A DNA stretch of 64,000 bases from Limnoperna fortunei (Eukaryota; Mollusca; Bivalvia; Mytilida; Modiolidae): positions 20,237,714 to 20,301,713 of the forward strand of contig OX104122.1 in NCBI GenBank assembly GCA_944474755.1, in the 5' to 3' direction. Each line of letters begins with the position of its first letter. Within the stretch, counting starts at the first letter, position 1. The translations under genes were made by a program, and so were the position numbers. The notes below the pieces were generated by a model. The model had not been told where the DNA came from. It was given only the letters and a program-made list of their open reading frames with translations, and searched no databases. Below are positions 8,861 to 59,625 of this stretch, one piece after another.

Positions 8861-8988
8861 CTGTTGTCTTCCTAAAAAGGAAGCACAGTAGACCAGTGAG
8901 TGACGTCACTTCCTATCGGGGGTTTTGTGAAGATTGCAATGCAATCTTTAATACGTTCGGTTTTCAGGTAAGACAATGAGAACCCATC

Positions 8989-14428: not shown

Positions 14429-14816
14429 AATATTATGAATCCAATTTCATTTAGCGGTCTTAATGGTGTGATAAAGTTTTCATGCCATGATACGCTTTTT
14501 ATAAGGATTTATTAAAACAAATAGAACTACGGTTTCTCATCAACTTATATGCGATTAATCATGAGTTTACGTCAGAATTGTATTTTTTTGCAATAATGTC
14601 GTTTCATTCATATTTACACCATCTCCGAAATTTCCTTGACCAGTCATGTAAGGCAAATTTTGTTTATGTCAAGCAAAATATTACTGTAAATATAACAGTA
14701 AGTTTGTCGGAAAAAAGTCTCAAAAATGATTGAACGGCTGGCAAAAATGTGTGAGGTCAAATTTTAATTACAATATTTGCATGTGAAATTTATCTAAAAA
14801 TAATCCTAGTATCTCG

Positions 14817-14861: not shown

Positions 14862-16340
14862 TCGTAACATTTTAAATTGCGCAAATGAAGTGCATGAAAA
14901 TCGTGTTCACTTTCGTTAATAAATCATCTCGATCCATTTTCCGAACCATTTTTATTTTTTAATGTTCAATCACGTTTAAAACAACTATATTTGTGGACAA
15001 GAAATATGAAAAAAAAACGAATTCTGAAATGAAAATAAATACAAGCTTTTACTAAATAGATTAAAAAATTTTTTTTCAATTGACATAAAAAACATTTTTG
15101 TCTATAAGGTACATGCTTTTTGCCCGCGGGTGCACTTATAACTATTGTTGTTATGATACTATAAAGCGGCGATAAAAATAAGGAAAGCACATTCATACAG
15201 TTTTACATCCACATCATTCAACTTTATTGAATGTTTGAATATGCATTACACAATGCGCATCCGTTCTGCCAAATGTTTGTATTGTAGAACCAAGTTCGTT
15301 TTCAGCACCAATCTTTAACCAGTACAACTTATTTATGAAATTTAACCCTCCTAGTTTTTAATCCGCGATCTTTTAAAACGTGGTCTATATATTAGAAATA
15401 TACTCTGCATATTATGGAGGAATTCGAAATTTCCACTTTGCCAGTTTTAAGGTTTTAAGCTGTATTCGTTACCAATGGTGCCCTTTATTATAATCAACTT
15501 CTAGTAGCATACGCATTTCAAGTTGGAGTTTTATAATTAATGGAATGTTTCTGTATGAATTTATACTATGGTAATATTTCAGACACTGCACAATTTTCAG
15601 TTGTTTTGATTAATGCTTTTATCACGTATGAGATGCCGCAAACGGTTATAGGAATCACGATAAATTAAAAAAAATAATACAAAAAAGTGTACTATCAGTT
15701 TTTTATATAAATAACCATTGCCTTGAATGTATGTTATGATCGTTTTCTAAAATATATGTTCTGTTTGCAACCTTTACGATGTACGACCAAATTGTCACAT
15801 GCGATTCTTTAAGCAAATTCAGACAAAAAACACGAACACAATACAACTCTGGTTGCACTCCGGCAATTGCACTGCCTGCTTCTAATTATACACCCATCCA
15901 GTCACTCATTGTCACGTGATTTGCTGTCGCTCGATATAAAATATAGACAAATTTTTGGTCTGACCATGTTCTAATTCGCATAGAGCCCGCTCGCAATAAT
16001 CTATTTCTTAAATGGTACTGAAAATTGCGCTTATATATTAAATTTTAAGACACAGAAAAATTATTATTAGTACAGCGTTTTTTATAGAAGGCAACATAAG
16101 ACTGCGTGGGCATTTTCTGTTTTGTTACGTCTGCCTGTGTTAAAATTTTTTTCCGTTTTCACTAAAATCAAAATTACATGAGGACTACCAATCTTTAAAA
16201 TCGCATTATTTCCTGGTTCTTCCGTGACGTTTCACGGATACAATCTGGTAAATCACGATGATTGAAACATGTTTTTCAGCTGTGTCATAATTTGATAACT
16301 GTAATTATATCAAGTTTCATGTAAACGTTGTCACTTATAT
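14862..16340. other. Intergenic, upstream of the first cysteine-rich gene
   Basis: No gene is seen. A TATA-like GATATAAAATATAG lies near 15932-15945 and a TATATATA near 16338, either of which could serve the cysteine-rich peptide gene whose start is at 16376. No stronger promoter signal is visible. Confidence 0.4.
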
Positions 16341-16375
16341 ATATGGCAGCATTTTTCTACATAAGAAAAACGAAA

Positions 16376-19300
16376 ATGAACACACAGCTAATTCTTTGTG
16401 TTTTTATTATGGCAGCGTCAACTAGTTCTGGAAGTGATGTAGCAGACTCCAACACAGTTACAGTTCCTCTGATCGATGATATGAAAGCCCATGCGACATT
16501 AGACATGTCAAAAGCAAACGAAAACATGAAAAAATATGTTAAAAAAACAATTGAAGAAAAGATGGCACAGTTGGTGAAAACGAAACTGGGCGATCCGTTG
16601 TATGTTAAATTAACGGAGAATCTCAAAACATACGTTGTAAACTTGGAGAAGATAAAAGGTATGTTTAACTGTAATTCGATATCTATGCATGTGAATGGAC
16701 GAGAAAACATGGACCGAAAATACAATTGTTCAGCAGCATGTTTCATAAAGTTAAACGTCACTTATCAAAATTTTACATTAATATTAATGCCTGTTGATCA
16801 CGTGTATTGAAAGTTGATTATGACGGTTTCTTTCCATTTCCTTTGCCAGCCGAGGAAGCGAACTTGGGGACTACATTATGAACAAAGTCGGGTTTATTTT
16901 CTTATGTCACGTAGGAAAGTGAGTACACATATTTGTAAAGTACAAAACAGGCCGCAAAATGGTAATACAATCTAAAAAACCTGGGGTCTAGCTACAAAAA
17001 ATTGCTTTATGCCAAATTTGATTTATGACAAAGATTTATTCTAACACTAGAGGTGAATTTGGAGCTGATTTTTAACCTACAGAGCACAAAAGTTCGACTT
17101 CTTATATTGTAGATATACATATATTAAATTACAATGACTTTCTGATGTATCCAGGAACCTATAATGAGTCCCAGATTTATCTTATTAATAAGATAGAATC
17201 GCATCTTTAGTCTTGGACAGTAAAAGTTAGTATCTAGTTGCGTTGGTCGTTTCATTTTTAATCTTTATGTAGTAGCGTTAAGGGGATATGGCCTATATAA
17301 AGCTTAATAGGTATTTAGTGTTCGCATTTTACATATTAATTTAGGTTATGTTTCTTAGTCTTTCTATATGGGTCAGTTGTCAACACTGATAGAAGAAAAA
17401 AGTGCTTAACATTTCTGTTAATTGTATCAAAAAGTTTAAAAGAAAAATTTTGTATACAGCAAATTATCACCCAGCATTTATGACCGTTAGTCGTTACACA
17501 AGGAAAACTTATCTGCACCTAGCATACAGTAATGGACTCTATACACAGATAGTATAAATTGGCCGTCTGTAAATTTTTAAGAATGTTTGACTTGCCGGTT
17601 GTGAAAATATATAGCATAACTTAAATATGATAGTTGCTATCTTTTATAATTTTATATATGAAATAGTTGAATAATAGTCGAATTCAGAATACTTCATAAC
17701 ATGGGATTTTGCTTAAATAAAAAAATGTAAACTTGATTATTAGCTTTATGTGTTACACGATTGTAATTGCTTTACTGAATTGTAAATAAAGATGACACAT
17801 ATTTGTTAACATGTGTGATAGCTTTCATGTTAACATTGCAATAAGTTGACAACATTAAAGGCCCAATACTGTTATAAAATTATTCTTTTATTAGTCATTT
17901 TTTACTATTTTGTTCTATAGTAGATTCCAGCAATAAGATAAGTTTAGGATTGGACTATGACTGCCAAAACTATATTTATTAAATGACTAGACTCGATAAT
18001 GTTACAAAATTGTACTTTTTGTTTTCATCATCACATATTTATTTTTTTATCTATTGACACAGATTCTATAAAGATAAATAAGCACAAAGTGGCTCTGGCA
18101 ATGTGTTTAGGAATTTCGGCTGATGGTCGTGACGTTAGAGCTATCAAGAGAACGTTCTGTGATGGAACAAATGACGGCACTTGCGATAACATATGTAGAC
18201 GTATTGATAATAGGTATTACTGACATACGCAGTTATACTAGGGGATAACTTATATTGCTGTATAGACAGAAAAGTCACTTTCCTAATTATTGTTAATGGT
18301 TAAATTATACTGATTTTAATAGTTATTTTTACTGTTTCGTCAACACAGCGAGTAAAGGGGGTTAAAAAAAGGGACGCCTACTAGACTCAAACACCAGCTT
18401 TCTAAATTATACTATTCAAAAATGACATTGAAAGTCATTTCTTAGTTTTATACAATCGTTCTAACATAAGTTTAACAAAATATTATAAACAGAAACACCA
18501 TCAAATCTTGCTGTATTAGTATTCCGTACCTTTTCTGTACTTTATATTATCAATTTATAATTTTGCTGTCTTTTAATAACTCCAATACCCTCAACGGGAT
18601 TTTTTTGTACAGTGCCGGATTGACTTTTTTAAATATCTTGTGCGGATTGTATGGTTTAAAAAAAACTGAACAAAAAATTCAAACAAATTTCGTAAACACA
18701 TTTTACATTACACCAACTCCATGGTCGATGTACTGGTTATCAGCTACATTAACTTTAAATCAGCTACATTAACTTTAAATTGTCAAAATATCACAATTAA
18801 CTATATTATTTTCAGGCAAGTAATGAATTTTGTTCTCAGTATCTGACATTGTTGTTATTCTTATGGTTCTAGAAATAGATTAAAAAATTCATTTGTACAT
18901 ATTCAGTGGCTGAGTATCAATAGATGTCAATATAAAGTATTAGATGAATTGCAATTAATAAATATAAAAAATAGACTGTTTCTTTAGTCAATATCAACCT
19001 CGGACTACTTCCTCGATCGAAATCTCGTTTGAAAATTTTGTTTAAAATAACTACGTATTTTAATTGTTCTTTTCACGAAACGATATCTATAAGGTGAAAA
19101 TTCAGCCAGTTCAGCTTTTAGAAAATAATATGCTACAGATTTTTTTCTCGTGTATCATATAAACACTAAATTAAATATTTGTAAATATCTATATTCATTT
19201 AGATTGAGTTGTTTTGAAACAGTCCACATTCACATTAAAGACTCGATTGATTGATTGATTAATGGTGTTTAACGCCCGAGCAGCAATATTTATGCTATAT

Positions 19301-22317: not shown

Positions 22318-24660
22318 ATGAAAAACTTGTAAATAGATTTCCTGGAAAAGATTAATATAGGAAAAATTCTATTCATTTAGATCAAAATACAGACATCTTT
22401 GCAAATTTGAAGAAAAGTCATATAAAACAATTTGTTCTGAATTAAGTAACAACTGTGCTAAGATCCAAATGTATTTTGGAACATGATAAATAAACTTGAA
22501 AGGGAATCAGCTGGTCAAATTGAAGACACTGATATTCCAAAGGAAGAATTCATATCATTTTACAAAAAACTAAATAAAGCTGACACTGCATATAGTAATA
22601 AACAACAAAATATCACTCGGGAATTTGAGACCCTAAAATCAAATATTAACTTCTCAGTCTCAGGTGAGTCGAACAATGAAATCACCTGTGAGGAGATGAT
22701 AAAAGCAATTAAATTACTTAAAAATGGTAAAAGTGCATCATCAGACCTCATCTCTAATGAAATGCTGAAGAATAGTACCACAGCATTAATTAAACCACTC
22801 TGTAAACTTTTAAAATTTTTTTCACATGGTATCTTCCCTAAATCTTGGAATGAAAACTATTTAGTTTTATTACATAAAAAAGGTAATAGATTTGACCCTA
22901 ATAATTATAGGGGAATATCTATCAGCTCAAACTTAGGAAAATTATTTAATAAGATTATATACAATCGACTTTTGGAATTTATGAATAATCACTTTCTAAT
23001 AAGTAAGAACCAAATAGGATTTAAAGAGAAGTGCAGGACTTCTGATCACATTTTTATTCTTAAAAACTATCACAGATAACTATAAAATGAAAAATCAAAG
23101 TGTTTGCAGCCTTCACTGACCTAAGAAAAGCCTTTGACACAGTGTGGAGAATCGGTTTTTATTTACAAACTGCTAAAACATAACACTCCTAATGAAATAT
23201 TTAAAATTATATACTCCATGTATACTGATACTATGTAAAATTAAATTTTCAAATGATCTAAGTGAGCCATTTATATCTGAAAGAGGTGTTAAACAAGGTG
23301 ATGTTTGGAGTCCTCTTCTCCTTAACTTTTTTATAGATGATATAACAAAAAAACTGGAAAACAACATATATTACCCAGTGGTCTTGGGTGGTATTAGAGT
23401 AAGCATTCTTCTTTATGCTGATGATACTGTACTAATATCTCAGAGTAAGGAAGGGTTGCAAAACTGTCTCATTGCCATGCAGGAATACTGTTCAATATGG
23501 CATTTACATGTAAATACTGATAAATCCAAAGTAGTAGTATTTAATTCGAATGGTAAAACCTTTTTAAACCAATTAAAATATAAAAATTTATATATCTAGA
23601 AACAGTATCTCAGTACTGTTATCTAGGCATTTTAATAAAATGTAATGGCAACTTTAATCTAGCTATTAACACATTGATGGAAAAAGCCAAAGAGCATATT
23701 TTGAAAATTAAAAAGCTAATTGGATTAAATAACCCTTGCAAATTATTAGAAAAACTCTTTGATACACTAATTTTACCCATTATCACATACTGCAGTTAAA
23801 TATGGGGTATTTTCTCCAACTTTAAAGATACTGAACCATTTGAAAAATTACATCTTAATTTATAAAAGAAATTCTAGGTGTACATTGCAAAGCTACTAAT
23901 GATGCATGTCGAGCTGAACTATGTCGACTTCCCTTAAAAAGTAAAATTCTGTACTCAAGCATCAAATATCTAGAATATATTATAGACTCGGAAAATTCTT
24001 TAGTAAAAACTAATTTTGAAAATTCTGTTCACTCAACCAATTGGTTTATCAAACTGAAAACAGTATTAAATAATTTAGGTTTTTCATGATTTAAGCTCAC
24101 TTAAACAATACTTAAATCAAATAAAAATTAGATTAAATGATCAAAATCTCCAAAATCAAAATACACTTATAGACACTAAGACACATCTCCAAAACTAGAA
24201 TTTTTTCAAAATTTTTGTTTTTAAATGGGATGCAGACCTCGCTATTTAGATATCTTAAAGAAAGCTAAAGACAGGGCTGCTCTTTGTAAAATGCGTTTCA
24301 GTGCTCATAATCTAATGATAGGAAAGGGAAGATACCAAAAACTAAATAGAAAAGATGGAAACTGTCTAGTTTGCAACGCAGGAGAAATTGAAAATGAAGA
24401 ACACTTTCTGTTGCATTGCAAACATTATAAGCTGATAAGAAGTACATTTCTTAAGAAAATCAAAAGTTTAATCCCAAATCTTTTAACAAATCCCTATTAT
24501 GCTTTTTGTTGAATAGCAAATCTGAATTTTGTCTAAAACTTACTGCTACATTTATTTTAGAATGCTTTGAATTAAGAAGAAGTTGTATCATATAAAACGT
24601 AATTTTAATTGGTTATATCATCTGTATACTATATAATATAATATAATATAATAATAAATA
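21620..24660 (+). pseudogene. Broken LINE (non-LTR retrotransposon): endonuclease, reverse transcriptase, C-terminal zinc motif
   Basis: Remnants of one ORF2 in several frames. At 21620-21870 is the end of an apurinic endonuclease domain (a VDYIIVSNDI block). The longest open piece, 22483-23079, holds the start of the reverse transcriptase (NNYRGISISSNLGKLFNKII). Motif A (TDLRKAFDTVWR) is read near 23115-23155 in another frame. The piece 23192-23599 has GVKQGDVWSPLL and the catalytic YADD. The piece 24225-24512 has a C-terminal C-x2-C...H...C motif followed by AT-rich microsatellite tail sequence up to 24660. Frameshifts, stops and an internal low-complexity block at 22121-22316 show it is dead. 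The clade cannot be fixed from this. Confidence 0.85.
22121..22316. repeat. (A)n-(TA)n-(A)n low-complexity block inside the LINE
   Basis: A poly-A run, about 28 TA repeats, a short unique segment and a second poly-A run of ~36 bases interrupt the LINE ORF between the endonuclease and reverse transcriptase parts. Two poly-A ends suggest the 3' tail of another inserted retroelement, but no body is recognisable. Confidence 0.7.
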
Positions 24661-32249: not shown

Positions 32250-33934
32250 TATATATTTAAATTTGAAATTAACTATTAAATGAATAATACATATTGGTGG
32301 ACTTTACTAAAAGAACATGTTAGATGTTTCCAATACTTTGAAATTGCTTACTTTTGTCAAAGGTTTTGGGACTGTTTACATATATTGCTCTAAGACTAGA
32401 TCCACAGAGCCGTCCACAGCTCTCTGTGCCTAGTTCAATATCAGTTTCGGTGCACTTAATTGAGCTATTTGAGCACGTTTAACAACGCATTACACAGACA
32501 TAACCGCTAGTGTTATAAGTGCAAATTTATGCATAAAAGTTTCAGATATGACAATTTTCTATTTATTTTAAAGCGCATAAATTAACTGTTATGCTTTTAA
32601 ACAGTCGTAACTATTTCAATGTGATGTACATCAAACAGTGACAGAGTTTTGTTACGAAATTTAATAGGTGAATTGTCCTATCTTTTTAAGAATGCGCACT
32701 TTAATGAAACCGATTGGATGAAATGGCAGTAAACTGATTGTTATGTTATTCTGACTTGCAAAATGTTGCACATAGACACAGTATACAGGTTTCAGCATCG
32801 AATTGAGTGTTTTAAAACAATTGTGCAATTCTTAGGTGTTGGAAAGACCTTAAATTCAGAAACATTTATATAGATTTATTAACTGAAAATTAACTTGGAA
32901 AACATAAACAGCTTCGTCCGATAATGGCGTGTTTGCTACTATGTATTTTCTATACGCGGGAAGCGGTTGGCAAATAAGCTGCTTAAGCAAGAATACACAG
33001 CTATTATATAAATTATACCCTCTTGAGTTTTAGTTTTAATGTCATCATTAGTTGGTCAATCACTAGAGATTTCCAATATACTAACTCGGGAAGGTTTTTT
33101 TTTATTCAAAGAATAAGGAACATATTTCACAAAGTTGTTATTATCAAAGCAGGAGGTATCTACTATTTAAATAATCCAGAACTTACTTCTCCAATAAAGT
33201 TAATGCAATGTGCCCTGGTTTTGGGTTCAAAATTTTGTTAATGTGTAGTAATAATTAAGATTGACGTGATGACCCCTCTAGTTAATTTTGTTTTAGGTTT
33301 TTAGTATTTTGTGATTCATAAGATAACTTCTTTTGATATGTGAGAACATATTGCGATAGAAAAAACCACCTACTGTTGTCAATGTACATGTCAGCTTCAA
33401 CATCGTCAATGATAGATCAATCTTGAATCATCATATTTATATCCATCCCACACAATAAGTGCAGTTATGATACTCTGGTTCAAATCATGGAAATCTGGTT
33501 TTTCTAACTTCAGACACTTAATTTTATAACGACCTTACTCTTTAGTTTAATAACACATTACTAAAAAATCGTGCTCCGTAACCTTAAGCTAACTATGAAT
33601 ATGTATTAAAACAAATTACAGTTTAAAACTTTCAGCCTGACCTATAGCAGTCGCTTTGTAAAGACGATAAGCTGCTTCCGGTACTGGACTAGACATTCAA
33701 AGGTAATCAACATTTTGCTCCATATACCTGTAAATACATATACCTCGCTTTCTTTCTGCTTCTAAACGCAATGTTAAATTAAATGATTAATACGTTTGAA
33801 TAATATTTGTGACAGATAAACCAACATGAAAATGATGCAAACTATGCGTTGCATAGATATAAGCTCAGTTCTGAGCCTTCATTTTATACGCTACTGGCCA
33901 TTCTTCATACTTCTAAAATCTCTATATATATTTA
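32250..33934. other. Gene-free stretch
   Basis: A small imperfect inverted repeat (CTAGATCCACAGAGC...GCTCTCTGTGCCTAG) lies at about 32394-32436, similar to the start of the 29041 repeat family. Otherwise I see nothing. Confidence 0.45.
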
Positions 33935-34098
33935 AGTTGGAGTGAGAAAGTTTAAGATCAATATGTTATGACTTGTCTACGTCATTTATTTATATTGACA
34001 GTCAATGACTAAGGCCATTCGTTGGTCAGTCTTTGTCTAAATTTTTGACAAGACACACAGTCATTTGTATCGTTGCATATTCTTCTAGACTTGTAGGG
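33935..34098 (+). repeat. Solitary partial copy of the 514-bp ribozyme satellite
   Basis: From AGTTGGAGTGAGAAAG to CTTCTAGACTTGTA this matches the part of the satellite unit that runs from the end of one unit into the first ~140 bp of the next (compare 52797-52950). It stops long before the hammerhead segment, so it contains no ribozyme. It shows that the unit is dispersed as well as tandem. Confidence 0.85.
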
Positions 34099-38456: not shown

Positions 38457-41400
38457 ATGGACATCACATTAAATAATGGAATTAAATTTCCAATGTTTGG
38501 ACTTGGAACTTGGCAGGTAAAAAAATAACATTTATGTTATATTTATTTAATTTTATATCATTCGTGTTCACCTCAACTAGGCAATTTTTACGTTTTAAGT
38601 TTTATTTAGGAAGGCCGCAGGAGTACCAAGAAGAAACTTCAATCGTGGACATGCGCGAGTAACTCGCATTTTGGTTCGAATGTAAACAGAGCGTTACTTT
38701 TTAAAATCTTTTATATTGTACATAATATTGTTAGAAAAATTAAGGCTTATAAATGTTGGATTCCAGTCAGTTTTTTTTAAACTACCATTGCAGCTATGGT
38801 ATATACAATTATACATAATTTATATTAGTTGATAGAAATTTACCTAATGGTGAGATGAGTTGACACGATATCTAATTGTCCCGTTCAAATTTTTAACCAT
38901 TAGATAAATCGTGAATCATGTCTTTGGAAAGACAGTTCTGCATTTAGAGCATAATTAAATGCTTTTTCAGAGTCCAAAAGAAGAAGTAAAGACAGCTGTG
39001 AGAGAGGCCTTGAATGCTGGTTACAGACATATTGATACAGCCTACATGTACGGTAATGAGGATGCTGTGGGAGAGGTCATTGAAGAATTCATCAAGTCAA
39101 AGAAATTGAGAAGAGAGGAAGTTTTTATAACAACTAAGGTAATAGATTTACTTTATTATTGTGTAAAACTGTATAACGTTCGGATGAATGAAAGAAAATT
39201 ATTTATTTAAAATTTAAGGTAACTCGTGATCTATAATAATACTGTATGTATAATCTTATATAAAAACATGTATGACCTTATAGAAAAGTACACAGTTTTA
39301 AACATGTTGACTGGGACCATACTGTGAGGGTTCACAGTGCTCGACACACAGAGCTGCCCAATGCGTCCCCGGCCGGTTGATAAGGGATGCCCTCTCGTTG
39401 GGGTGGCAGGTCATTATACGGAAAAGCATGACCCCGGCCACAGTGAGTAACGTGTTTGGAGAATTCCACACCTTTCACGTTATAGGCCCCTTTTGTAGAT
39501 GTTGATAAGAGTAGGCTCATTGTAGCCTCTACCAATTGCTAAATTTTCCACCCTTACCAATACCAGATAATTTTCCAGTGCGAACTGATTTATTGTTTGT
39601 TAACTTGTTCTTCTCCTGAATATAGCTGACGTCATGTGCAAGAAAATAAAAAACCTAGAACTTGAACGTTAAAACATGCAATTGTCTTATTTCTAAATTG
39701 ACAACAATGGCAGTTTCGTTGTTGAAAATTTTAGCCGTACGTTCCGGATTCCTCACTAATAAAAACTTGACGCATTTTATAGCAAAAATCTATTTTACAA
39801 CCATATGCTTAAAAGTAAGAGATATTAGCATACCTGAATCTGATTGTTGTTTAATTAGTGTTACAGGTAACATCAAAAGTTTGTCACTGTTATTAACCAA
39901 AAAGTTCAAAATATATTGTTAAATCCACATGAAAAAAAAATCACCTAAGATTAAGATTTCAATATTAGATCTTGGATATTTGTAGAACCTGCACAATCTG
40001 GAAAAGAGCGATTAAACATCACTATGTCAACGATTTCTTTTGTTTTTCTTATTCAGCTGCCGGGTATACATACTCGCTCTTCAGATGTAGCCCTGTCTTT
40101 AGACATTAGTTTAAAGAACCTTAAGTTGACTTACATAGATCTGTATCTTATACATGGCCCTATACCGTTAAAGGTAAGTTGATCATATCTGAAATTTAAT
40201 AAATGTTGACAAAATGCTTTTTGATTGGACCAAAACAAATTGTATTGGAAAAAATCATAGAGACATGCCCACCTTATTGATTTATGTGATTTATGTTCGT
40301 ATTAATACGCCATTAATTAAAATATTGTTTAAAATTGCTTAAACTTGTTCATTATTTTGTTTTTTATATTGTTGTTTTCGGTTACTTCAAGACCTCAATT
40401 ATAAAGTATTGCATAAAGATATCAGTTTCAGAAGTTGCTTAAAATTTATTTGAAGTGTTATTAAAGATACAACCCTTATAAGATAAATACAATAAGAAAA
40501 CACATCTTCCATTTCTGTCCCCTTTCTATTTTTATGGAAATATTATCAAACAACTAAAACATTTTAGCATGATCTTGTTATACTCACTACATATGCAACA
40601 CATCTCGATAAAAAGGGTTACAAATAAGGTACGATTGTATAGTATAGTAATTTCTTGATTTCAATTAAACATATGTAATACAGATTTACTGGCCTCTCGA
40701 GTCGATTTAGGATTCTTTAATATAAAGATGAACAGTTACCGAATTGATTGTCTGAGGGTTTCCTCGAGTCTGTTTTAGTTTTCCCGGATTATTTATTTTT
40801 TGTGCACATGCGGTTGTGTTCTCTATTTTGGAATGTCTGCCTTTCTGTTATGCTGTAAATATTTTATTTCTTGGGCAACAACTAGCTTTTATCTAAGTAA
40901 GGACCTAGTTTATTCTTAAAGCTCTTGCTACAAAAATTAGTGTTACTGATTTTAGTTTGTGATACTTCGTAATAACCCCATGTATACATCTGTAAATTAG
41001 AAGTTATTTTTGGTAAATGTAACCATTTATTTCTTTATCTAAAATATTTCCTTTTAAGCAGCGTAATGTTGTTTGTTGATTTTTATTTCAGACGCTTCGA
41101 GATCGGTTTACTATTGTATAGGGTCTAAGAGTCTTTCTTGTTCAGACGCTGACCTGCATGTTTTCCTCTGTTTCTATATGTTTTTTATTCTACTTTAACG
41201 TCCCATCAGTTCTTTAATTTATGTATTTGTATTTCACAGTTTTGCGTTAGTATGTGTCGTGAAATCTTCACCATCTTGTTTGGATGGTATTGTGGAAGTG
41301 TAGCATTTTTCTTTGCTGAAAAAGTTTTTCATGTCTGTGTTGTATGGGAAATTACATTTAAAATGGGTTTGGGATCCTTTTAACCATTTTAACTCCGGTA

Positions 41401-44400
41401 AATGATGTCTTTTGTAAATGATACACACGCTGATATTTCATGCCCCCATTTTTGTTCTTTTTGTTGTTCGTTATTTTTTGGTGATTTGGTTTCCGTCGTT
41501 TTTATTGAGATGTTTGGGTTTGGTTTGTATACATTTATATATTCAAACATTGTCTAAATCCAAACTGCAAAAAGAGTACATCTAGCATAAAAAAGATACA
41601 AAAAGGGATACATATTACGTCATTTATCTGTCACGATTCACGCATCAATACAGTCATCACACTGTTTTTTCTATTTAGAATACTGGACCATTAAACATTT
41701 ATCCAATGGAGAATGGCAAATTACTGGTTGACGATTTTGATCTTGAGGGTACATGGAAGGTATAGTTTTACAATACATATGTAAAATATACAAATAAAAA
41801 AAGAAATAAAAAGAAATACCTGTATACAAACGTAAGAGCCAGGGTGAAAAGGAAAATGACGTTCACAAATCAACATAAAATAAGCAAAGATGTGACGTTA
41901 TGAAAATACACATATATAGTAAAAAATAGAAATGACATATGGACAATACAGAAACTGTATTAGCACTAGAATGCGGAAAAACTATCAGTCTATTATTTCC
42001 AAATCGGATAATTTCTTACACTTTCTCCTTTGAGTAGCATAAATATTTTTTGATAAATATACACATTATTACTAGTCATTGTCATTAACTAAACTGGTTT
42101 CATATTGTTTTTGCAGGCCATGGAAGCAATGGTAGATCAGGGAAAAGCCAAATCTATTGGAATTTCTAATTTCAACAGAAAGCAAATTGAAAGAATATGT
42201 AGAGTAGCAAGAATTTTACCAGTGACAAATCAGGTATTGATACAACAGTTAATGAAAGTGTACACAAACACATTTACATTCAATATATTGGGGGGAGGGG
42301 CGGTATTTAAAAACCAACGCTTCAAGCTTTGCGAGAAAAGTATATGCAATACAGGAGTTTAGAATTCAATTTGAGTACTATAAAGTGTTGGCTTACCTAA
42401 TTCCACCATTCAAAAGACATTTTAAGATTGTTAATAAATATAAACACATTGTAACTGCATCTCATCTACTATGAACATTATGGTGTCTTCGTAACCATAT
42501 ACATTCAACTAAACTCAAAGGCCAAATTAATATTTTTTCATGCAACATTACTTTATTATATCAGTGTCTATTAAATCTCTTTATTTACAAGTCGTTTTCT
42601 GTATACTCTGCAGATAAGTTCCTTTATTAACACTCTGCTCGGTATCATAGGTGGAATGCCATGCATACTTTCCTCAAACGGAGCTTGCTGAATTCTGCAA
42701 GGAAAAGAATATAGTTTTGACTGCATATTCTCCTCTGGGGTCACCTGGGAGACCAGCGGAATTGGGGTAAAAATTATTACAGACGTATCTGCAGCACTAT
42801 TGTATATATTTCAATGATCATTTACATACAACGGTAACTAAATTCATACGTACCAATTTTATTTAAAAAAATCTTTTGAAATCGTTTTAAGCTGCTAAAA
42901 ACGCAAACATTTATATACGTAATTGATACAATGAAGAATTTAACAACTTGACTTTTATGCGAAATTCAAAAGAGGTTGATTTGAAATACCTAAATTTATA
43001 TGTACACATTAGATTTAGGTTACCAAAACCTATTTGAAATGAAAATGGCATTGATGTTCTTCATCGATTTGAAATGATTTTCGCCTTGATACATGATAGG
43101 CAAATATTTGTCTTTGTCGTTGATCTGCTAAACTGAACAGAAAATTAATCGATTGTAGAAGGCTTTATTACCGCAAAACTTAGACATTTTGAAAAAGACT
43201 TTAATAGAAAGTAAATTATTCATGCTAGGTATTATTTACTAACTCTGTGTTTTGTTTTAGTAATGAAGGAGATATACTTTTGGATGATCCTGTAGTGAAT
43301 GAAGTAGCAAAAAAGTATAAGAAGTCCCCAGCTCAGGTAAACTTTACTACAGCATCTTGCTGAAACATGCTGAAACACACTGAGCTTAACCAAAAACTGA
43401 GATGTACTACATTACACATCTATGTTCCTGATAATATTTTGAAAAGCCTTAAATTGAAAAGATTCACTGCAGTGACTCATCATGAAAAAGAACTAAAACA
43501 GTTCCTATAATATTCATCAGTTTTTATCTGGAAGACTTTATATTTTAGCTTAGTAATGTTGAAGTAGTGGTCAGTAATTATTAAAATTAAATCGTGGTCC
43601 ACCGTGGGTACGTTTTTGGAGAGTACCACGCTCCTTGCACGCTAAAGACCCCTTTTGTAAATGTCGATAAGAGTAGGCTCGTTGTAGCTCCCGCCCCTAC
43701 CCGATATTTTGTCAGTGGCATTCAAGTTTTTCCCGGCAGCGATGTTTTCATCTCATTCTTGTTTTTTCTATTTTGTGCAAACAGATTCTCCTTCGATGGT
43801 TGTTGCAGAGAAATATAATGGTCATTCCAAAAAGTGTCACACCGTCCAGAATAAGAGACAATATCAAGGTCAGTTCTTAACAAATTTACATTCATTTTAT
43901 TTCTCTTTATTGGTAAATTGCATTCTATTGTTAATAATATTCTTACAATTGTTATTGATATAGAGGTTTTTGCAACTTTCAGCAATTTTTCAGCTTAATC
44001 ATAGCCTCTCTTTTAATATGAAATTGGAAGGCCTAACACTCGGTAGGAAGCTCGAAGATTGATTGTCATGAATTAATGTTTTAATTGAAGCAGACGTTGA
44101 CATATATTGATAGCGGATAAACTCATAACTGAACTTTTTAAATATAACTATGAATACTAAGCCGCAAAAAGTAAATTTTTACTATAGAGTTCTATTGACA
44201 AGATCGCTACTGTAATGGTGGCAGAAACCACTGGCGTTACTTGGTATGGCTGCACAACAATATTGCTAACTTATCTCGCTTTGTTTAAACTTTTTTGTTG
44301 ATTCATAGGTGTTCGATTTCTCAATATCAAAAGAGGACATGACAAAGCTTGGAAAGTTAAAACATCGAATTCGTTATATCGAAGGCAAAATGTAAGTTCG

Positions 44401-45504: not shown

Positions 45505-47540
45505 GATTATGCACTTGATGTTGAAAGAATAGATCCATTAACACCTAAATACAGATTTACTAGCATCATTTGCGACATAGCGTCTTTCCGTCATTTCACA
45601 CCTGAACGGACAGAACCTCTTCTGGCTGAGAATAAAAAAATTCCTTCACAATTCAAAATAAAGGAAATGATGCAGTTAACATCAGCAATATTCTTAATAG
45701 AACAGAAGTGGAAGATCAGATCCGTACATATTTTAAAAATCAATCTAGTTCTATCGTGTCTTATAACACCAACACCATTGCCCGTAAAATCTTCAACTAC
45801 AAACCAGCATTGCAGAACCTAGACATTGAAACTTACATCAAGCAACCTATTAAATAAACTTGTTCTCATTGTCCTTACATATACAATCACTCTGGTCATG
45901 TCATTACTGGTGATCTGAAGATCATTTACAACGAGAATCTTAGAAACATTATTTCTCGTGGTCCAAAATCCAGAGAACCTCAAGCAGTAGACAAGAATTT
46001 AAATTTCAAAACTATTATGGAATTAGTTGAAGAATACTCCAGAGAATGGATTAAGAGAGAAAGGGAACAAGACCCAGAATTAGATGCACTGTCTAACTAG
46101 GTAAGGACAATAAGGTCTTTGGTACAACGACGAATTAAGAATCTTAGACACTGCATTAATGATCGACCTAAATCCGTATTCAAAGACAAGGATGTAATGA
46201 GGTGTCTCAATTCCCTCTATGACGAATATGTTGTCGTCCCTGCAGACAATGCTTCTAATAACTTTGTGTTTGTATGTAAGTCATATTACTAAAAATGCTT
46301 CATCAAAGAACTAGGCATCAAGGATAATTCTGGTAATTCTGCATACAAACGTACAACATTTGACAAAGATGAAATCCTGGCTAACCATAAGTCCTTCATG
46401 ACTTCTTTGAGTATTAATTACGATATAAATTCAGACGACATACCATACTTGTATTAGATTCCTAAATTACATAAAAATCCTTACAAGGAAAGATACATAG
46501 CCGGCTCAGCTACATGCTCTACCAAAGAGTTGTCAAAACGGTTGACTAATATATTGTCTGCAATGAAAGAAGGACTGCAAATATACTGCGAAACTGTTTA
46601 TTTGCGAAGTATTATAAATCATATGTGGACTATTAAAAATTGAAAAGAACTTTTGGAAAATTTATAATCAAGATTAATATCTAAAACTTCATTAGAACCA
46701 ATCTATTAGAACCTTTGATTTTGCAACTCTTTATACCACCTTGCCGCACGAAAATCTAAACGTACGTCTTTATAATACATAAAACCTTCGCTTCCACAAA
46801 TGAATACACATAAGTAGTTTTAGGTTACGACAATACGTTATTTTCTACTAAAGATTTTTTTGTTTGTGTGGTGTTTTACGCCCCTTTCTGCAATTTTTAG
46901 CTATATCATGGCGTCCAGTTTTTATTAGGGGGAAGCCTGACTACCCGGAGAAAAACCCCGACCTTCGGAAGGAAATATGGCAATTCTTGTCAATTAAGGT
47001 TGGAGTCGAAGGACAGGTTTATAGCATGCTAGATTTGCAGATTAACAACCTATTTGTAACTTTTGGAGTATGTGTTTTTCAGCTATCAATCGGAATTCCA
47101 ATTTGTACAAACTCAGCCCCACTCCTTGCCGATTTGTTCCTATATTCTTATGAAACTGAATTTCTTCGACGTCTTATTAAAGAGAAGATAGCAGCAGCTT
47201 GGTCCTTTAATTTTACATATAGATATGTTGATGATATCCTTCCAATTAACTACCCTCAGTTTGCTCAGTGGCTTCGTTGATATATATCCTTCAGAACTAG
47301 AAATTTAAGAAACCACAGAAACAGCTTCATCTACAGCATGTTTAGACTTAAACCTCGAATATGCAAAAAAAAACCGATTAAAAGAAAAAAGAAAAGTCTT
47401 GTCCGCGCCTTTAATAAGTCTTACTATAGATAAAACTTTCTTGTCGAAAAATCTCGTTTGAAAATATGGTTACAGATAGTTTTCACAATTTTTTAATTCA
47501 GAGTACCGTGAATGTGGTAAAATGATTATTGGATACACCT
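45505..47540 (+). pseudogene. Dead reverse transcriptase, probably Penelope-like element
   Basis: Successive frames carry an N-terminal part (TIARKIFNYKPALQNLD), a Cys/His segment with HSGHVITGDLKI, GPKSREPQ, YDEYVVVPADNAS, IPKLHKNPYKERYIAGSATC, CSTKELSKRLTNILS and a degenerate FDFSTLYT-type motif. They continue with VFQLSIGIPICTNSAPLLAD, LFLYSYETEFL and the catalytic YVDD (near 47224-47238), then YPSELEI. The usual GIPMGTN has become GIPICTN. Many in-frame stops (for example at about 45854, 46098, 46287, 46456) and a SINE insertion at 46861 show it is dead. Assignment to Penelope-like elements rests on the IPKLHK and GIPMGTNCAPLLADLFLYSYE signature as I remember it. It starts right at the 3' end of the AKR gene. 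Confidence 0.7.
46861..47018 (-). mobile_element. 5'-truncated SINE inserted in the reverse transcriptase
   Basis: Reverse orientation: TTTGTGTGGTGTTTTACGCC, CATGGCGTCCAGTTTTTATT, GAGAAAAACCCCGACC and TTGTCAATTAAGGTTGGAGTC match the 3' two-thirds of the SINE at 53118-53386. The tRNA head is absent. Reverse-transcriptase coding resumes immediately after it. Confidence 0.85.
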
Positions 47541-49733: not shown

Positions 49734-52700
49734 TTAGAAAAGATCCCTAAATGGATATTCTGGATGATCTTGCATTCTAAAATAAAATAAATAAATAAAT
49801 ATATACTCTTATATAAATTACAAGTAGTGCAATGTATTTAACAAGGACTTAACATTCAAAGAAACGACAACACAATGAACAGAAAAAACCAAACCTACAA
49901 AAAATACGAAAAAGCATATACAATATTTAAGCGCTATTTATGGTAATATAAAAATATGATATAGACCATAAGAAATAAGAACATTTCTCATATTAAATTC
50001 TACATATGAAAGTATACTACATGTTCGAATAAGTAAAACACAATTCAATTGGCTAATATGATTTAGATTATTCAGGACGAACTTTTTATGTTTGTTTAAT
50101 ATAGATATTGCTATGGCAATTGTCAATCAGCAAAGCCAGAAAAATAATACTGCTGAAGATTAAGATGGACCAAAGCTGTGAGATAAAAGAAAAAAAGTCA
50201 TAAATATTCTCTAAAACATTCACCTTCCTTATTTATACTTACAAGTCAATTGAAAAATAACGAGGACAATAGCCCAAATTTCCTAGTTTTTCCATGTCGT
50301 CTTTTGATATTAAAAAATCAAATACCTAATAAATATAAAGATATACAATAAAATATGGCGTTATAAAATATCCAAATTAAAATACCCAATTATTTTGGCA
50401 TTTAAATTTAACCTGTTTTGTTGTTTCTTGACATGTTCTTGTCATGAATATATCTGAAATATGTAGTACATTTTTATCATTATTTATGCCTTGGGGCCTC
50501 GTTTGCCTTGTGGTTAATGTAGTTCGTATACTATTAATCACGTGGTCTGTCAACGCTGAGATTGTGGGTTCGAGTCTCACTGGAGGCAGGGTCCTCGACT
50601 CATTTCTTAATTGACAAGGATTGCCAGTTTTCCTACGGAAAATTGAGGGTTTTTTCCTGGTAATCCGGCTTCCTCCACCGACAGAAAATAGACGCCATTA
50701 TATAGCTGAAAAATTGCTGAAAATTACAAGCAAACAAACAATATTATTTATGCCTCCTTCCATAAATATAAGTAAGACAAAACATTAAAATAAACAAGAC
50801 TAGTGCAATTTGCAAAAATTTTACTCAAAATAATTGAGATAAGAGATACAAACTAACATATATACATTGCACATTAAAGTCATAAAAATAATAACAAGTA
50901 CACAATATGTCGGCTTGGCCTAAAAGGGGTAAATAATCACCATTTGGCCTAAAAAGGGGAAAATTATTTCCTGTACAAGACACAGCATGGATAAATCGAA
51001 CATTAAACATCACAGCCTAAAATGAAGCAAATAATCTCATCTAAAAAATATAGATGTGATACATAGAAAAGGAAGCATACTAATAAACTGAAATAAAAGA
51101 CAAAAATATTTAATAATAATGGTGATAATATCATAAAAATAACGAATAATGTGCAGATATAAAAATGATATAAAAATATATAACAAAATGGCGATGAAGG
51201 GGAAGGTGGCTGGGTTTAAAAGTTCTTAAAAAACTGAAATCCTTTATTTCTGTTATCGTGACTTGGGCTAATGAATAAATAATCAGCTGATCATTATCTC
51301 TTGGCCAATTAAAATCATGTATTATACCTTATGTCAGAAGCTCCAAAGAGGATAATATAAATATTTTGATGTTAATTCAATAATTCGAGAATATAATAAA
51401 TCAATAAAGTTCATTTCGTTGGCATAAAACATGTCATAAGAATATAATTGCATATTAAACGTGCTTTAGACAAAAACTGCAGTTAAAATGCAATATTAGT
51501 ATATATAGTACCTGCGTATTCTCTCTGATTCTTGAAGGTGCTACACTTTTTGGTATAACCATTATGTTTCTTTGTAATGCCCAACGTATCAAAACCTGTT
51601 TTAACATTATTTTAATTTTTAATTTTTAACTTACTGGATATGAAAGTTTTGATTATACGACAACAACACTTGTTCTATATAGTCTTGGGTTTGGTCAGTT
51701 AAGATGTCTTCAGTATTTTTAATTAACGTACTCGTAAAAGATAAAATAACCATGGTTTAAACAAAATATATGTCGTATACAATATTTCTAAAACAGGTAT
51801 TTTAGCAGTTTTATTAGAATGTCTAGCTAAACAATATAATTTACTAACCCTTATGTGTATGGACTAATCGCGAAAGCGGCAACATACCATTTGACCATAT
51901 GAATTAGCTTCACACACTTATAACTACCTGTGCTGGCGACTTTTGATATTTCTCTGCTAATTCATTTACCACAGGATCATCTAATAGTTGGAGATTCTTT
52001 GTTTTATCACTATAACATATAATACAGTAAACTTGTGAATACTGATGTATCTTGATGTGTTCCTCCAAAATGTTGTGTACAATGCCGAAATCAGATAAGG
52101 TGAAATATCAGAAGACTCAGTACAAGAAAATACAAGGTTCTGTTTACGAAAAAACTCCAGAACACAATAAGTACCAAACAACAAAACAAATATAAAACGC
52201 GAACCCGTATACATCGAATAAAGAACATGTTTGTCATATTAACATGGCTCTTGGTTGTATTTGAGTAGATAGAAATGGGAATGTAATTAATATATATATT
52301 AAGATCAATATGTTATGACTTGTTAACGTCATTTATTTATATTGACATTCAATGACTAAGGCCATTCGTTGGTCAGTCTTTGTCTAAATTGTTGACAAGA
52401 AACACCGTCATTTGTATCGTTGCATAATCTTCTAGAGTTGTATATTATTTTTTGTTTATGCTGTATCGTCATGTTTGTCGAACCGATACTTAATAAGCTT
52501 TACTGGTTGGTAGACTCTTTAGATGTTCATATAATATTTTGAACTACCTGTATTGTGTTTTTACACGATCCCAGTGGACTTATATTATTCCATCACCGAA
52601 TGAAAAAATACTTGAAGCATTTAGAGTTAAACGCCACTGATGAGTCTTAAGTAGACGAAACGCGCGTCTGGCGTAATGAATTTGTCACCTTGGTAATTTT

Positions 52701-55381
52701 GATTACATCTTGTTGATATATTTGAGGAAAGCCAAGTAACAGCACGGCACGTCCGCGGCTGGCGGACTTGAAAAGCCACTATTTTGGGTTAAGTTGGAAA
52801 TGAGAAAGTTTAAGATCAATATGTTATGACTTGTTTACGTCATTTATTTATATTGACATTCAATGACTAAGGCCATTCGTTGGTCAGTCTTTGTCTAAAT
52901 TGTTGACAAGAAACACCGTCATTTGTATCGTTGCATAATCTTCTAGACTTGTATATTATTTTTTTGTTTATGCTGTATCGTCATGTTTGTCGAACCGATA
53001 CTTAATATTAAGCTTTACTGGTTGGTAGACTCTTTAGACGTTTATATAATATTTTGAACTACCTGTATTGTGTTTTTACACGATCCCAGTAGACTTATAT
53101 TATTCCATCACCGAATGATGTTTGTTTGTTTGTTTGAATGGTGTTTTAACGCCACTTTCAGCAATTTTTCAGCTATTTCATGGCGTCCAGTTTTTATTGG
53201 GGGAGGAAGCCGGAGTACCCGGAGAGAACCCCCGACATGCGGTAGGAAAACTGGCAATCCTTGTCAATTAAGATTGGAGTCGATTACACCCTGCCTGCAG
53301 TGAGAATCGAACCCGCAATCTCAGTGTTGACAGACCACGTGATCAATAGTAGACGAACTACCTTGACCACTCGGCCACCGAGGCCCCATCACCGAATGAA
53401 AAAATACTTGAAGCATTTAGAGTTAAACGCCACTGATGAGTCTTAAGTAGACGAAACGCGCGTCTGGCGTAATGAATTTGTCACCTTGGTAATTTTGATT
53501 ACATCTTGTTGGAATATTTGAGGGAAGCCAAGTAACAGCACGGCACGTCCGCGGCTGGCGGACTTGAAAAGCAACTATTGTGGGTTAAGTTGGAAATGAG
53601 AAAGTTTAAGATCAATATGTTGTGACTTATTTACGTCATTTATTTATATTGACATTCAATGACTAAGGCCATTCGTTGGTCAGTCTTTGTCTAAATTGTT
53701 GACAAGAAACACCGTCATTTGTATCGTTGCATAATCTTCTAGACTTGTATATTATTTTTTTGTTTATGCTGTATCGTCATGTTTGTCGAACCGATACTTA
53801 ATAAGCTTTACTGGTTGGTAGACTCTTTAGATGTTTATATAATATTTTGAACTATACCTGTATTGTGTTTTTACACGATCCCAGTGGACTTATATTATTC
53901 CATCACCGAATGAAAAAATACTTGAAGCATTTAGAGTTAAACGCCACTGATGAGTCTTAAGTAGACGAAACGCGCGTCTGGCGTAATGAATTTGTCACCT
54001 TGGTAATTTTGATTACATCTTGTTGATATATTTGAGGAAAGCCAAGTAACAGCACGGCACGTCCGCGGCTGGCGGACTTGAAAAACAACTATTTTGGGTT
54101 AAGTTGGAAATGAGAAAGTTTAAGATCAATATGTTATGACTTGTTTACGTCATTTATTTATATTGACATTCAATGACTAAGGCCATTCGTTGGTCAGTCT
54201 TTGTCTAAATTGTTGACAAGAAACACCGTCATTTGTATCGTTGCATAATCTTCTAGACTTGTATATTATTTTTTTGTTTATGCTGTATCGTCATGTTTGT
54301 CGAACCGATACTTAATAAGCTTTACTGGTTGGTAGACTCTTTAGATGTTTATATAATATTTTGAACTATACCTGTATTGTGTTTTTACACGATCCCAGTG
54401 GACTTATATTATTCCATCACCGAATGAAAAAATACTTGAAGCATTTAGAGTTAAACGCCACTGATGAGTCTTAAGTAGACGAAACGCGCGTCTGGCGTAA
54501 TGAATTTGTCACCTTGGTAATTTTGATTACATCTTGTTGATATATTTGAGGAAAGCCAAGTAACAGCACGGCACGTCCGCGGCTGGCGGACTTGAAAAGC
54601 AACTATTTTGGGTTAAGTTGGAAATGAGAAAGTTTAAGATCAATATGTTATGACTTGTTTACGTCATTTATTTATATTGACATTCAATGACTAAGGCCAT
54701 TCGTTGGTCAGTCTTTGTCTAAATTGTTGACAAGAAACACCGTCATTTGTATCGTTGCATAATCTTCTAGACTTGTATATTATTTTTTTGTTTATGCTGT
54801 ATCGTCATGTTTGTCGAACCGATACTTAATAAGCTTTACTGGTTGGTAGACTCTTTAGATGTTTATATAATATTTTGAACTATACCTGTATTGTGTTTTT
54901 ACACGATCCCAGTGGACTTATATTATTCCATCACCGAATGAAAAAATACTTGAAGCATTTAGAGTTAAACGCCACTGATGAGTCTTAAGTAGACGAAACG
55001 CGCGTCTGGCGTAATGAATTTGTCACCTTGGTAATTTTGATTACATCTTGTTGATATATTTGAGGAAAGCCAAGTAACAGCACGGCACGTCCGCGGCTGG
55101 CGGACTTGAAAAGCAACTATTTTGGGTTAAGTTGGAAATGAGAAAGTTTAAGATCAATATGTTATGTCTTGTTTACGTCATTTATTTATATTGACATTCA
55201 ATGACTAAGGCCATTCGTTGGTCAGTCTTTGTCTAAATTGTTGACAAGAAACACCGTCATTTGTATCGTTGCGTAATCTTCTAGACTAACGTCTTGTATA
55301 TTATTTTTTTGTTTATGCTGTATCGTCATTTTTGTCGAACCGATACTTAATAAGCTTTACTGGTTGGTAGACTCTTTAGAC

Positions 55382-55461
<80 letters not shown>

Positions 55462-56726
55462 TTGGGATAAGTTTTTCTCAACAATAACCAAATAATATTG
55501 TTGTCTGGCATATGAAGTATGCTAATAAATGTAACGGATTTTACTTAACTGGGGAATAATTTCAGACTTCATGTGTAATTAGCACTACTTAGTATATGCT
55601 TTTAAGTATAAATAATTGATTTCTTAGTCAAGTAGTTCAAGAATATCGATGGTAACTTAACGTACTTAACAAACTCTGCAGGTCTTCTAGGAGAGCCAAG
55701 AGAGCAATAAGCGGTCAAAACTATCTTTCGTTTCTCGCAAAATTCAGCGAGTTCTTTTTGTGGAAAGTATGGATGGCATTCCACCTGTCACATATAAAAG
55801 CATGATTAGATTTTATTACAAATATTTTCTAGTCGTAAGATTTCATGACATACAGATGGTGAGATGGAATATATTATGTACATGAGTATTTGTTGCTCAT
55901 CAACTAATTGAATTGCTACTTAAAATGGTGAGAACAAGACGCTGTAGCGTACATAGTTTACTTTATCTGATTGGTTGAGTTAAAATAATTTGCACATTAT
56001 GATTCAACTAACATTCCACACAGACATATTATTATATCTCACAGTTGGTCAATCACTCTGATATTACATGCATTTTGCAAACTTTAATCTTTGTTCATTA
56101 CAGCTTACTTACACTGGTTAGCAGAGTACTGTTTGAATTGAGGGAGAATTTGATAATAGAAAAATTCACGGTGGAGGATGTTTTGTACAAAACTATTTAG
56201 TCTGCAACAAAGACAATATATAATTAGACTACTGCGGATTTTAATAAATATTTAGTAAACAATAATAATGCTTGCACCTGATTTGTGACTGGTAAAATGG
56301 ATGCAATGTCGCATATTCTTGAAACTTGCTTTGAATTAAAATTAGACACTCCAATTGATGTAGCCTTTCCTTGACGTACCATTTCTTCCATTGCCTGTAA
56401 AATCAACGAGTACAAAACTATGAAGCTAAACTTCGCAGTATGTGTTTGATTATATGGTACAACTGTCTTCGTTTGTGTTTAGAATGAGAGGTCATATAGA
56501 CACTCAAATCGAAATGTTTACGTTTAATTTTATCTAAACTAAATTTGAACATATTATAGCTATTAAAGTTTCTCACTAAATGTAGAATCGTAATAATCTG
56601 CATAGAATACACATCAATAAATACAAAGTAATTTGAAATGTATACCTTCCAGGTACCTTCTAAATCTGTGTTATCTGTCAATAATTTACCGTTTTCGATT
56701 GGGAAACAATTTGTCGGTCCTGTATT
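49734..56726 (-). CDS. Second aldo-keto reductase copy, only exons 4-10 visible
   Basis: Exons 56726-56646, 56394-56278, 55784-55666, 52009-51928, 51595-51512, 50325-50243 and 49776-49734 match exons 4-10 of the AKR at 38.5 kb, five of seven with identical length and all with identical phase. Motifs seen: GVSNFN, IPKS, the VFDF start of exon 9 and the HPEYPF C-terminus. The exon 6 AYSPLGSP loop reads AYCSLGSP, losing the conserved Pro. Exons 1-3, which carry the whole catalytic tetrad (Asp, Tyr, Lys, His), are not found anywhere upstream to the window end. All visible frames are open. It is either a 5'-truncated tail-to-tail duplicate or a gene whose 5' exons lie more than 7 kb away past other genes. 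The intron between 55666 and 52009 holds the ribozyme satellite. Confidence 0.8.
50492..50752 (+). mobile_element. tRNA-derived SINE, near full length
   Basis: GGGGCCTCGTTTGCCTTGTG head (A box), a good B box GTGGGTTCGAGTCTCACTGG, AATTGACAAGGATTGCCAG, TAATCCGGCTTCCTCC, ATAGCTGAAAAATTGCTGAA and an (CAAA)n-type tail. It lies in the intron between exons 9 and 8 of the second AKR copy. Confidence 0.88.
52631..52674 (+). ncRNA. Hammerhead ribozyme, unit 1
   Basis: Stem I ACGCCA/TGGCGT (6 bp), core CTGATGA, stem II GTCT/AGAC with loop TAAGT, core GAA, stem III ACGC/GCGT (4 bp, no loop), and cleavage after C52668 (GTC|TGG). All core bases of the hammerhead are present. The loopless 4-bp stem III is typical of repeats that cleave best as tandem dimers or circles. 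Confidence 0.95.
53118..53386 (-). mobile_element. Full-length tRNA-derived SINE inserted in satellite unit 2
   Basis: On the - strand: GGGGCCTCGGTGGCCGAGTG head with intact A box, B box GCGGGTTCGATTCTCACTGC, the body (AATTGACAAGGATTGCCAG; TACTCCGGCTTCCTCC; AAAAACTGGACGCCATGAAA) and a CAAACAAACAAACA tail. A perfect 13-bp duplication CATCACCGAATGA flanks it (53105-53117 and 53387-53399). The other satellite units show the empty site, which fixes both ends. It is the best reference copy of this family in the window. Confidence 0.97.
53427..53470 (+). ncRNA. Hammerhead ribozyme, unit 2
   Basis: Identical in all 44 positions to unit 1. It lies 796 bp from the previous ribozyme because a 269-bp SINE and its duplication sit between them; predicted cleavage follows C53464. 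Confidence 0.95.
53941..53984 (+). ncRNA. Hammerhead ribozyme, unit 3
   Basis: Identical to unit 1; exactly 514 bp after the unit 2 ribozyme. Predicted cleavage follows C53978. Confidence 0.95.
54455..54498 (+). ncRNA. Hammerhead ribozyme, unit 4
   Basis: Identical to unit 1; exactly 514 bp after the unit 3 ribozyme. Predicted cleavage follows C54492. Confidence 0.95.
54969..55012 (+). ncRNA. Hammerhead ribozyme, unit 5
   Basis: Identical to unit 1; exactly 514 bp after the unit 4 ribozyme. Predicted cleavage follows C55006. The following partial unit ends before a sixth ribozyme. Confidence 0.95.
55388..55456. repeat. (TA)n microsatellite at the end of the satellite array
   Basis: About 34 TA repeats. 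In intact units this position reads GTTTATATAATATTTTG; here the TATATA core is expanded and the unit resumes with AATATTTTG before unique sequence, so the microsatellite arose inside the unit. Confidence 0.95.
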
Positions 56727-59014: not shown

Positions 59015-59625
59015 ACTGTGAGCACGCTCACAAAGGGATACCCCCCGCTTCGCTTCAAGTCCAATTATCTCCCCTGAATAATATCCGACAGCGACGAAAA
59101 TTCTTCATGCACATCTACATATGATGTACTCCCTTCATGTAAAGTTTCATCAAAATCTGTCAAGCGGTTTAGGAGGAGAAGCGCTTACGAGGTCCCGCAC
59201 TGAATACTATATTTTAAAAGTCTAAGTCCAATTATCTCCCCTGAATAATATCCGACAGCGACGAAAATTCTTCATGCACATCTACATATGATGTACTCCC
59301 TTCATGTAAAGTTTCATCAAAATCTGTCAAGCGGTTTAGGAGGAGAAGCGCTTACGAGGTCCCGCACTGAATACTATATTTTAAAAGTCTAAGTCCAATT
59401 ATCTCCCCTGAATAATATCCGACAGCGACGAAAATTCTTCATGCACATCTACATATGATGTTCTTCCTTCATGTAAAGTTTCATCAAAATCTGTCAAGCG
59501 GTTTAGGAGAAGCGCTTACAAGGGATGTGGACAGACGGACAGACGGGTGGACAGACGGACAGACAGACAGACAGGGTGATTCCTATATACCCCCCCCAAA
59601 CTAGTTTGCGTGGGGTATAATTAAT
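59015..59625 (+). mobile_element. Pearl-like element with three ~169-bp core repeats
   Basis: Starts near a GTGAGCACGCTCAC palindrome and GGGATACCCCCC. Three copies of a ~169-bp unit follow (GTCCAATTATCTCCCCTGAA at about 59060, 59226 and 59393), the first two almost identical and the third shortened. A (GACAGACG)n tract runs 59528-59572. The end is a TATACCCCCC...GGGGTATA hairpin at about 59585-59618. Left arm, core repeats, microsatellite and terminal hairpin are the pearl layout. It lies upstream of the P2X7-like gene. Confidence 0.75.

Follow-up and report, generated by a model that had tools for sequence, protein, structure and literature searches.

Tandem type I hammerhead ribozymes lying antisense in an aldo-keto reductase intron of Limnoperna fortunei: a probable genomic copy of a retrozyme-like repeat

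Metazoan retrozymes have been described as units without long terminal repeats (LTRs), primer binding site (PBS), or polypurine tract (PPT), found as repeats of 150-450 bp and giving circular RNAs of ~170-400 nt, the Discussion of the same article extending the span to 150 to >1000 nt (PMC7229834; this and the other articles named below are cited from portions of their text). In Mytilus galloprovincialis, about 5000 type I hammerhead ribozymes fall into two families, usually within 350-390-bp repeats, and the retrozymes display slow self-cleavage, abundant circular RNA on northern blots, and ligation by RtcB (PMC7229834). This kind of element is already established, even in mussel. The present analysis concerns a stretch of 64,000 nucleotides from the bivalve Limnoperna fortunei (assembly GCA_944474755.1, contig OX104122.1, positions 20,237,714 to 20,301,713 of the forward strand), hereafter the window, in which about 5.5 tandem units of 514 bp carrying five hammerheads are found inside an intron of an aldo-keto reductase gene. 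The array is probably a genomic copy of a retrozyme-like, non-coding mobile repeat of the animal non-LTR kind, formed along the route proposed below. New are the 514-bp unit, a ribozyme-less fragment of it located 18 kb away, and the left junctions of both, where a (TA)n run abuts TTAAG. The 514-bp unit was not found in the titles and opening abstract lines of papers listed for Mytilus, mussel, or bivalve hammerheads or in the cited portions of PMC7229834 and PMC7761336, supplements aside.

Regarding the ribozymes themselves, Rfam cmscan of the 64-kb window returned five matches to Hammerhead_1 (RF00163), all on the plus strand and each at 39.0 bits (E 2.4e-6), the gathering score of this family being 34 bits. 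They are located at 52631-52674, 53427-53470, 53941-53984, 54455-54498, and 54969-55012, with the predicted cut, placed after GTC, following 52668, 53464, 53978, 54492, and 55006, respectively; no further hammerhead was among the matches listed for the two strands, even at E up to 5. The 44-nt motif sequence is identical in all five copies. The first-pass annotation, made from the letters alone, had reported five identical 44-nt hammerheads and named a covariance-model search as a check; the matches above confirm the observation. Successive predicted cuts are separated by 796, 514, 514, and 514 bp, and the single lengthened step, likewise reported earlier, is accounted for exactly, 796 bp being the sum of a 267-bp insert, a 14-bp duplication, and a 515-bp unit. 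A loose pattern of the catalytic core finds only the same five sites in the window, compared with a mean of 0.12 in shuffled sequence and at least five in none of 100 shuffles. The hammerhead array is real and far beyond chance.

The whole array, as delimited by blastn of the unit against the window and by reading of the junctions, covers about 52299-55464 of the plus strand. With unit numbering starting at the predicted cut, it begins at unit position 142 (52299) and ends at about position 385 (55464), neither end falling at a predicted cut. The fourth whole unit (u4, 54493-55006, plus strand), which has no private variant, is used as the 514-bp reference unit; its GC content is 35.2%, and neither strand of the repeated unit has an ATG-initiated open reading frame (ORF) longer than 23 amino acids. 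A type I hammerhead with an intact core in five of five copies, tandem spacing, low GC, and ORFs of at most 23 amino acids are the traits by which a non-LTR retrozyme is recognized. The retrozyme-like reading proposed from the letters is kept with regard to the tandem type I hammerheads, the low GC, the lack of a long ORF, and a class shown in mussel (PMC7229834), whereas its appeal to the layout of plant retrozymes is not. Two features modify the regular repeat. Unit u1 contains the 267-bp insert (53119-53385), assigned to the minus strand by eye from its tail; on either side of it stands the 14-bp sequence CCATCACCGAATGA, duplicated without mismatch (53105-53118 and 53386-53399). Similar stretches recur several times elsewhere in the window, and from its look the insert is presumed to be a short interspersed nuclear element (SINE); ARAGORN predicted no tRNA anywhere in the window. 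A (TA)n run, to which no strand is assigned, lies inside the last unit or at its right edge, at 55385-55460 according to tandem repeat finder and to reading of the junction, and beyond it the unit apparently resumes for a few bases.

A second trace of the unit, devoid of ribozyme, is present on the plus strand at 33932-34095, directly after a (TA)n run. This solo fragment of 164 bp corresponds to unit positions 121-285 with 95.2% identity and has different flanks from those of the array, 18 kb away; it had been missed in the first-pass annotation. The left junctions of the array and the fragment, at unit positions 142 and 121, respectively, have the same form, (TA)n followed directly by TTAAG. 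TTAAG is present three times in the unit, and (TA)4 or (AT)4 occurs in the preceding 12 nt at only 0.43% of window positions, a figure that refers to two cases and to a junction criterion picked after both had been seen. For a purified Penelope-like protein, the preferred DNA is AT-rich and has a 5'-ATT-3' motif, and reverse transcription is initiated internally in its RNA (PMC11167929). By analogy, integration of the Penelope-like type could yield both the junctions seen here and array ends independent of the cleavage site.

The array is harbored by part of an aldo-keto reductase gene on the minus strand (51517-56406), which was delineated by blastn against a plus-strand paralogue. Seven minus-strand stretches match this paralogue; four were used as exons (56406-56276, 55786-55672, 51988-51925, and 51601-51517), and three more are located outside the gene span (56728-56641, 50729-50685, and 50328-50276). 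The joined translation of the four exon stretches matches Pfam Aldo_ket_red with an E-value of 4e-23. The paralogues, at 39019-43863 (plus) and 51517-56406 (minus), have opposite orientations, and their four exon pairs are 76-81% identical. Between the second and third of the four exon stretches (55786-55672 and 51988-51925) lies the intron that contains the array (51989-55671, minus strand, 3683 nt), its edges being set by exon similarity to the paralogue and not by mapped splice sites. Without the array, this intron would measure 517 nt, compared with 512 nt for the matching intron of the paralogue, to which it has no significant sequence similarity; about all of the extra intron length is explained by the array. 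The plus-strand hammerheads are antisense to this minus-strand gene, whose own pre-mRNA accordingly contains none. The location in an aldo-keto reductase intron had been recognized in the first-pass annotation, which missed, however, that the gene is on the opposite strand. The idea that the host pre-mRNA is cut by hammerheads of its own is likewise rejected, as the minus strand has no hammerhead match.

With regards to folding, stem III of a single copy consists of 2 bp (A-U and C-G) closed by a palindromic GCGC loop. The earlier description of a full core with fully paired stems I-III is correct for the catalytic core, intact in all five copies, but not for stem III, which in a single copy is this short. 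In the isolated motif, the active monomer fold has a computed energy of -8.1 kcal/mol, above the minimum of -11.3 kcal/mol, and a predicted fraction of 0.0007. Two copies of the motif co-fold at -34.3 kcal/mol as a double hammerhead with an 8-bp stem III, a joint fold that had been overlooked in the first-pass annotation. For a 558-nt tandem RNA, the ensemble energies are -143.2 kcal/mol unconstrained, -141.6 with the dimer, and -131.5 or -124.4 when one or two monomer hammerheads, respectively, are formed; the dimer ensemble lies 10 to 17 kcal/mol below these monomer ensembles. The hammerhead is predicted from these energies to cut best as a cis dimer, i.e., with two copies on one RNA.

The following route is proposed for the formation of the array. 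The plus strand of such arrays would be transcribed by read-through, and adjacent hammerheads in one transcript would pair via the palindrome ACGCGCGU, the resulting cis dimer being the main cutting form. The released 514-nt units would be closed by a host RNA ligase; transcription of the plus strand and a 514-nt circle are presumed by this route. As a single-unit circle holds one hammerhead, poor at reaching the active fold, the circle would survive. A reverse transcriptase starting internally would then copy circles into multimers with arbitrary ends, and these multimers would be joined into AT-rich DNA. The present array would be one such insertion, later modified by private mutations, by the SINE-like insertion, and by growth of the (TA)n run.

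Several observations weigh against this account at one step or another. The 514-bp unit is outside the ~170-400 nt range of circles, which is a description and not a strict limit; there is no second hammerhead array in the window; inspection by eye of the two array ends, the right one blurred by the (TA)n run, revealed no target duplication; and no intact helper was detected with Pfam among the eight window ORFs scanned. Insertion by the Penelope-like protein did not require hammerhead cutting, and its main substrate was uncut RNA (PMC11167929), which gives no preference to a circle intermediate for that helper. As regards the dimer step, the fold energies do not include tertiary contacts, a stable helix III and efficient cutting as monomers are reported for most type I hammerheads of invertebrates (PMC7761336), and a cloned mussel repeat, with a genomic copy as template, cut at about 0.1 per min (PMC7229834). 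A strict dimer rule is also opposed by a result from axolotl, where a hammerhead whose stem III has 2 bp reached 22% cutting in 1 h as a monomer (PMC7229834). Since monomer cutting is reported for other hammerheads, weak, not zero, cutting of one unit is to be expected. As regards the dimer switch as the reason why circles last, none of the 12 hammerhead pairs forms in the predicted minimum-energy circle, and self-pairing hides the hammerhead in some mussel circles (PMC7229834). With the hammerhead hidden in the predicted circle, self-pairing becomes a rival block to dimer dependence. The fold of the circle is not unusual either: its stability is equalled or exceeded by 126 of 200 shuffles and by 32 of 100 GC-matched window stretches, and its paired fraction of 63% equals the shuffle mean, while published retrozyme unit RNAs are highly self-paired, over 70% (PMC4918200). 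A specially folded circle, one of the candidates tried, is rejected on the shuffles, which are equally paired and mostly at least as stable.

Differences among the units inform on the history of the array. The alignment used comprises the four whole units (u1 without its insert) and two part units, the right-hand one truncated at the (TA)n run. It contains 20 variant events, 18 of which are private to one unit (4 in the left part unit, 3 in u1, 6 in u2, 1 in u3, 0 in u4, and 4 in the right part unit); the two shared events are a TA step in the left part unit and u1 and one C/T difference in u1 and the right part unit. Units arriving together as identical copies should display mostly private, star-like variants, and the pattern seen fits this expectation. 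To the points against the proposed route must be added that u3 and u4, which differ by one base, have jointly one private change where 6.6 are expected (P about 0.01, noticed post hoc); together with the two shared events, this likeness may reflect later exchange or duplication inside the array. With respect to the motif itself, no variant is found in 5 x 44 nt where ~1.4 would be expected (P 0.24), and 111 of the 471 44-nt stretches of the linear unit are likewise invariant. On both grounds the identity of the motif is uninformative on selection; selection as its cause is rejected, and the argument made for it in the first-pass annotation fails.

The leading alternative, judged unlikely, is that the array is plain satellite DNA grown by unequal exchange or slippage, in which the hammerheads are inactive passengers of an old element. 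The near-identity of the middle units u3 and u4, when the left part unit, u2, and the right part unit have 4 to 6 private changes each, is in line with such growth, and so are the antisense position in the intron and the absence of a special fold in the circular unit. However, 18 of the 20 variant events are private and not nested, and the solo fragment 18 kb away has a similar (TA)n-TTAAG junction. All five catalytic cores are intact, which also speaks against inactive passengers, although chance alone permits it (P 0.24).

A composite origin has also been considered. The cloned monomer from M. galloprovincialis is 353 nt long (PMC7229834), and 514 minus 353 leaves 161 nt, near the 164 bp of the solo fragment, a comparison of sizes only with respect to the published sequences of cloned mussel circles, MN642551-MN642576. 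The unit could accordingly join a ~353-nt mussel-type retrozyme to a ~161-nt segment also existing alone, with a hammerhead active only as a cis dimer. The dimer switch would cut multimers and spare circles. In host introns, antisense would be the orientation that can be survived, with the intron RNA then complementary to the circles. Taken as a whole, this combination is distinctly unlikely. The circles of animals are abundant and stay closed, and most of them, some mussel ones excepted, are predicted with a hammerhead free to fold; a block other than self-pairing is held probable (PMC7229834). Dimer dependence, if true, would be a simple candidate for this block, as a circle has one copy only, though for the present unit self-pairing rivals it. 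Under the same condition, such dependence would go some way toward accounting for retrozyme circles of animals that are not cut again. The locus also raises the question of an orientation bias among self-cutting intron repeats.

It is very unlikely that the repeat belongs instead to an autonomous Penelope-like element, as its pseudo-LTR or a terminal piece, with the five units a tandem remnant. Penelope-like elements do bear minimal type I hammerheads, maybe cutting as dimers (PMC7761336), they occur in tandem, and the (TA)n-TTAAG junctions suit an AT-preferring endonuclease (PMC11167929). The unit, however, has no ORF for reverse transcriptase and GIY-YIG endonuclease, its longest ATG ORF being 23 amino acids, and it does not align, at E up to 1, with the degenerate reverse transcriptase located at ~46.4-47.4 kb, for which the one ORF tested had no significant Pfam match. 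The degenerate sequence, which extends over several frames at 46401-47400 on the plus strand, is perhaps akin to Penelope-like proteins, and its stretch 46855-47009 resembles the SINE-like insert of u1. Finally, an assembly artefact affecting the array or its copy number is scarcely credible: long repeats are hard to assemble and u3 and u4 are one base apart, but private variants are carried by the left part unit, u1, u2, and the right part unit, and the insert with its duplication marks one unit. The assembled copy count could be wrong even if the array is real.

Other features can be found in the window. Pieces of reverse transcriptase are present in two plus-strand ORFs at 22462-23599, one scoring 65.4 bits for Pfam RVT_1, above the cut-off, and the other 24.5 for a cut-off of 29.6. 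Two tandem arrays, at 3089-4343 and 59057-59523, both have a period of 167 bp. A direct duplication of 620 bp (12101-12720 and 13812-14429, 98% identical) flanks an ORF with a zinc knuckle scoring 20.6 against a Pfam cut-off of 20.8. At 8982-9068 on the minus strand, two Rfam microRNA families are matched at 48.4 and 45.9 bits, well short of the respective cut-offs of 90 and 95 bits; this stretch is perhaps, at a guess, a small inverted-repeat transposon. For the ORF at 16325-16807, a protein database search gave 13 candidates, of which none had an E-value of 0.001 or less.

Several known systems can be compared with the retrozyme-like array of L. fortunei. Outside animals, hammerhead patterns gave no match in viral contigs or in bacterial and archaeal genomes, a sequence word of the unit gave none in viral contigs, and the unit matched no phage or plasmid record; these blanks say little because the collections are not meant for animal genomes. 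In plant LTR retrozymes, type III hammerheads are located in LTRs together with a PBS and a PPT, while the hammerheads here are type I according to Rfam, LTRs, PBS, and PPT not having been searched for. Amniote intronic hammerheads, such as those of RECK and CTCL, are likewise found in an intron of a protein-coding gene (PMC6155905). They are conserved, with a suggested role in mRNA biogenesis (PMC6155905), whereas the hammerheads here form an antisense tandem array. The minimal type I hammerheads of Penelope-like elements have in common with the present ones a weak or missing stem III, tandem copies, and possible cleavage as dimers (PMC7761336), but they belong to a reverse transcriptase-bearing element, and no such element is linked to the unit in the window. 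The hammerhead satellites of newt and axolotl are also tandem, with a weak stem III and a tetraloop, and cut far better as dimers (PMC7229834, PMC6155905). They differ in their units of about 330-350 bp and in their host, and stem III has 1 or 2 bp in axolotl compared with 2 bp here. Nearest of all in its common traits is the non-LTR retrozyme of M. galloprovincialis, a non-coding repeat of low GC with a type I hammerhead (PMC7229834). It is reported to be transcribed into linear and circular RNA (PMC7229834), and its units of about 350-390 bp contrast with 514 bp here. The array is a well-preserved one of the animal retrozyme kind, with a larger unit, an antisense position in an intron, and a ribozyme that is predicted to work best as a dimer.

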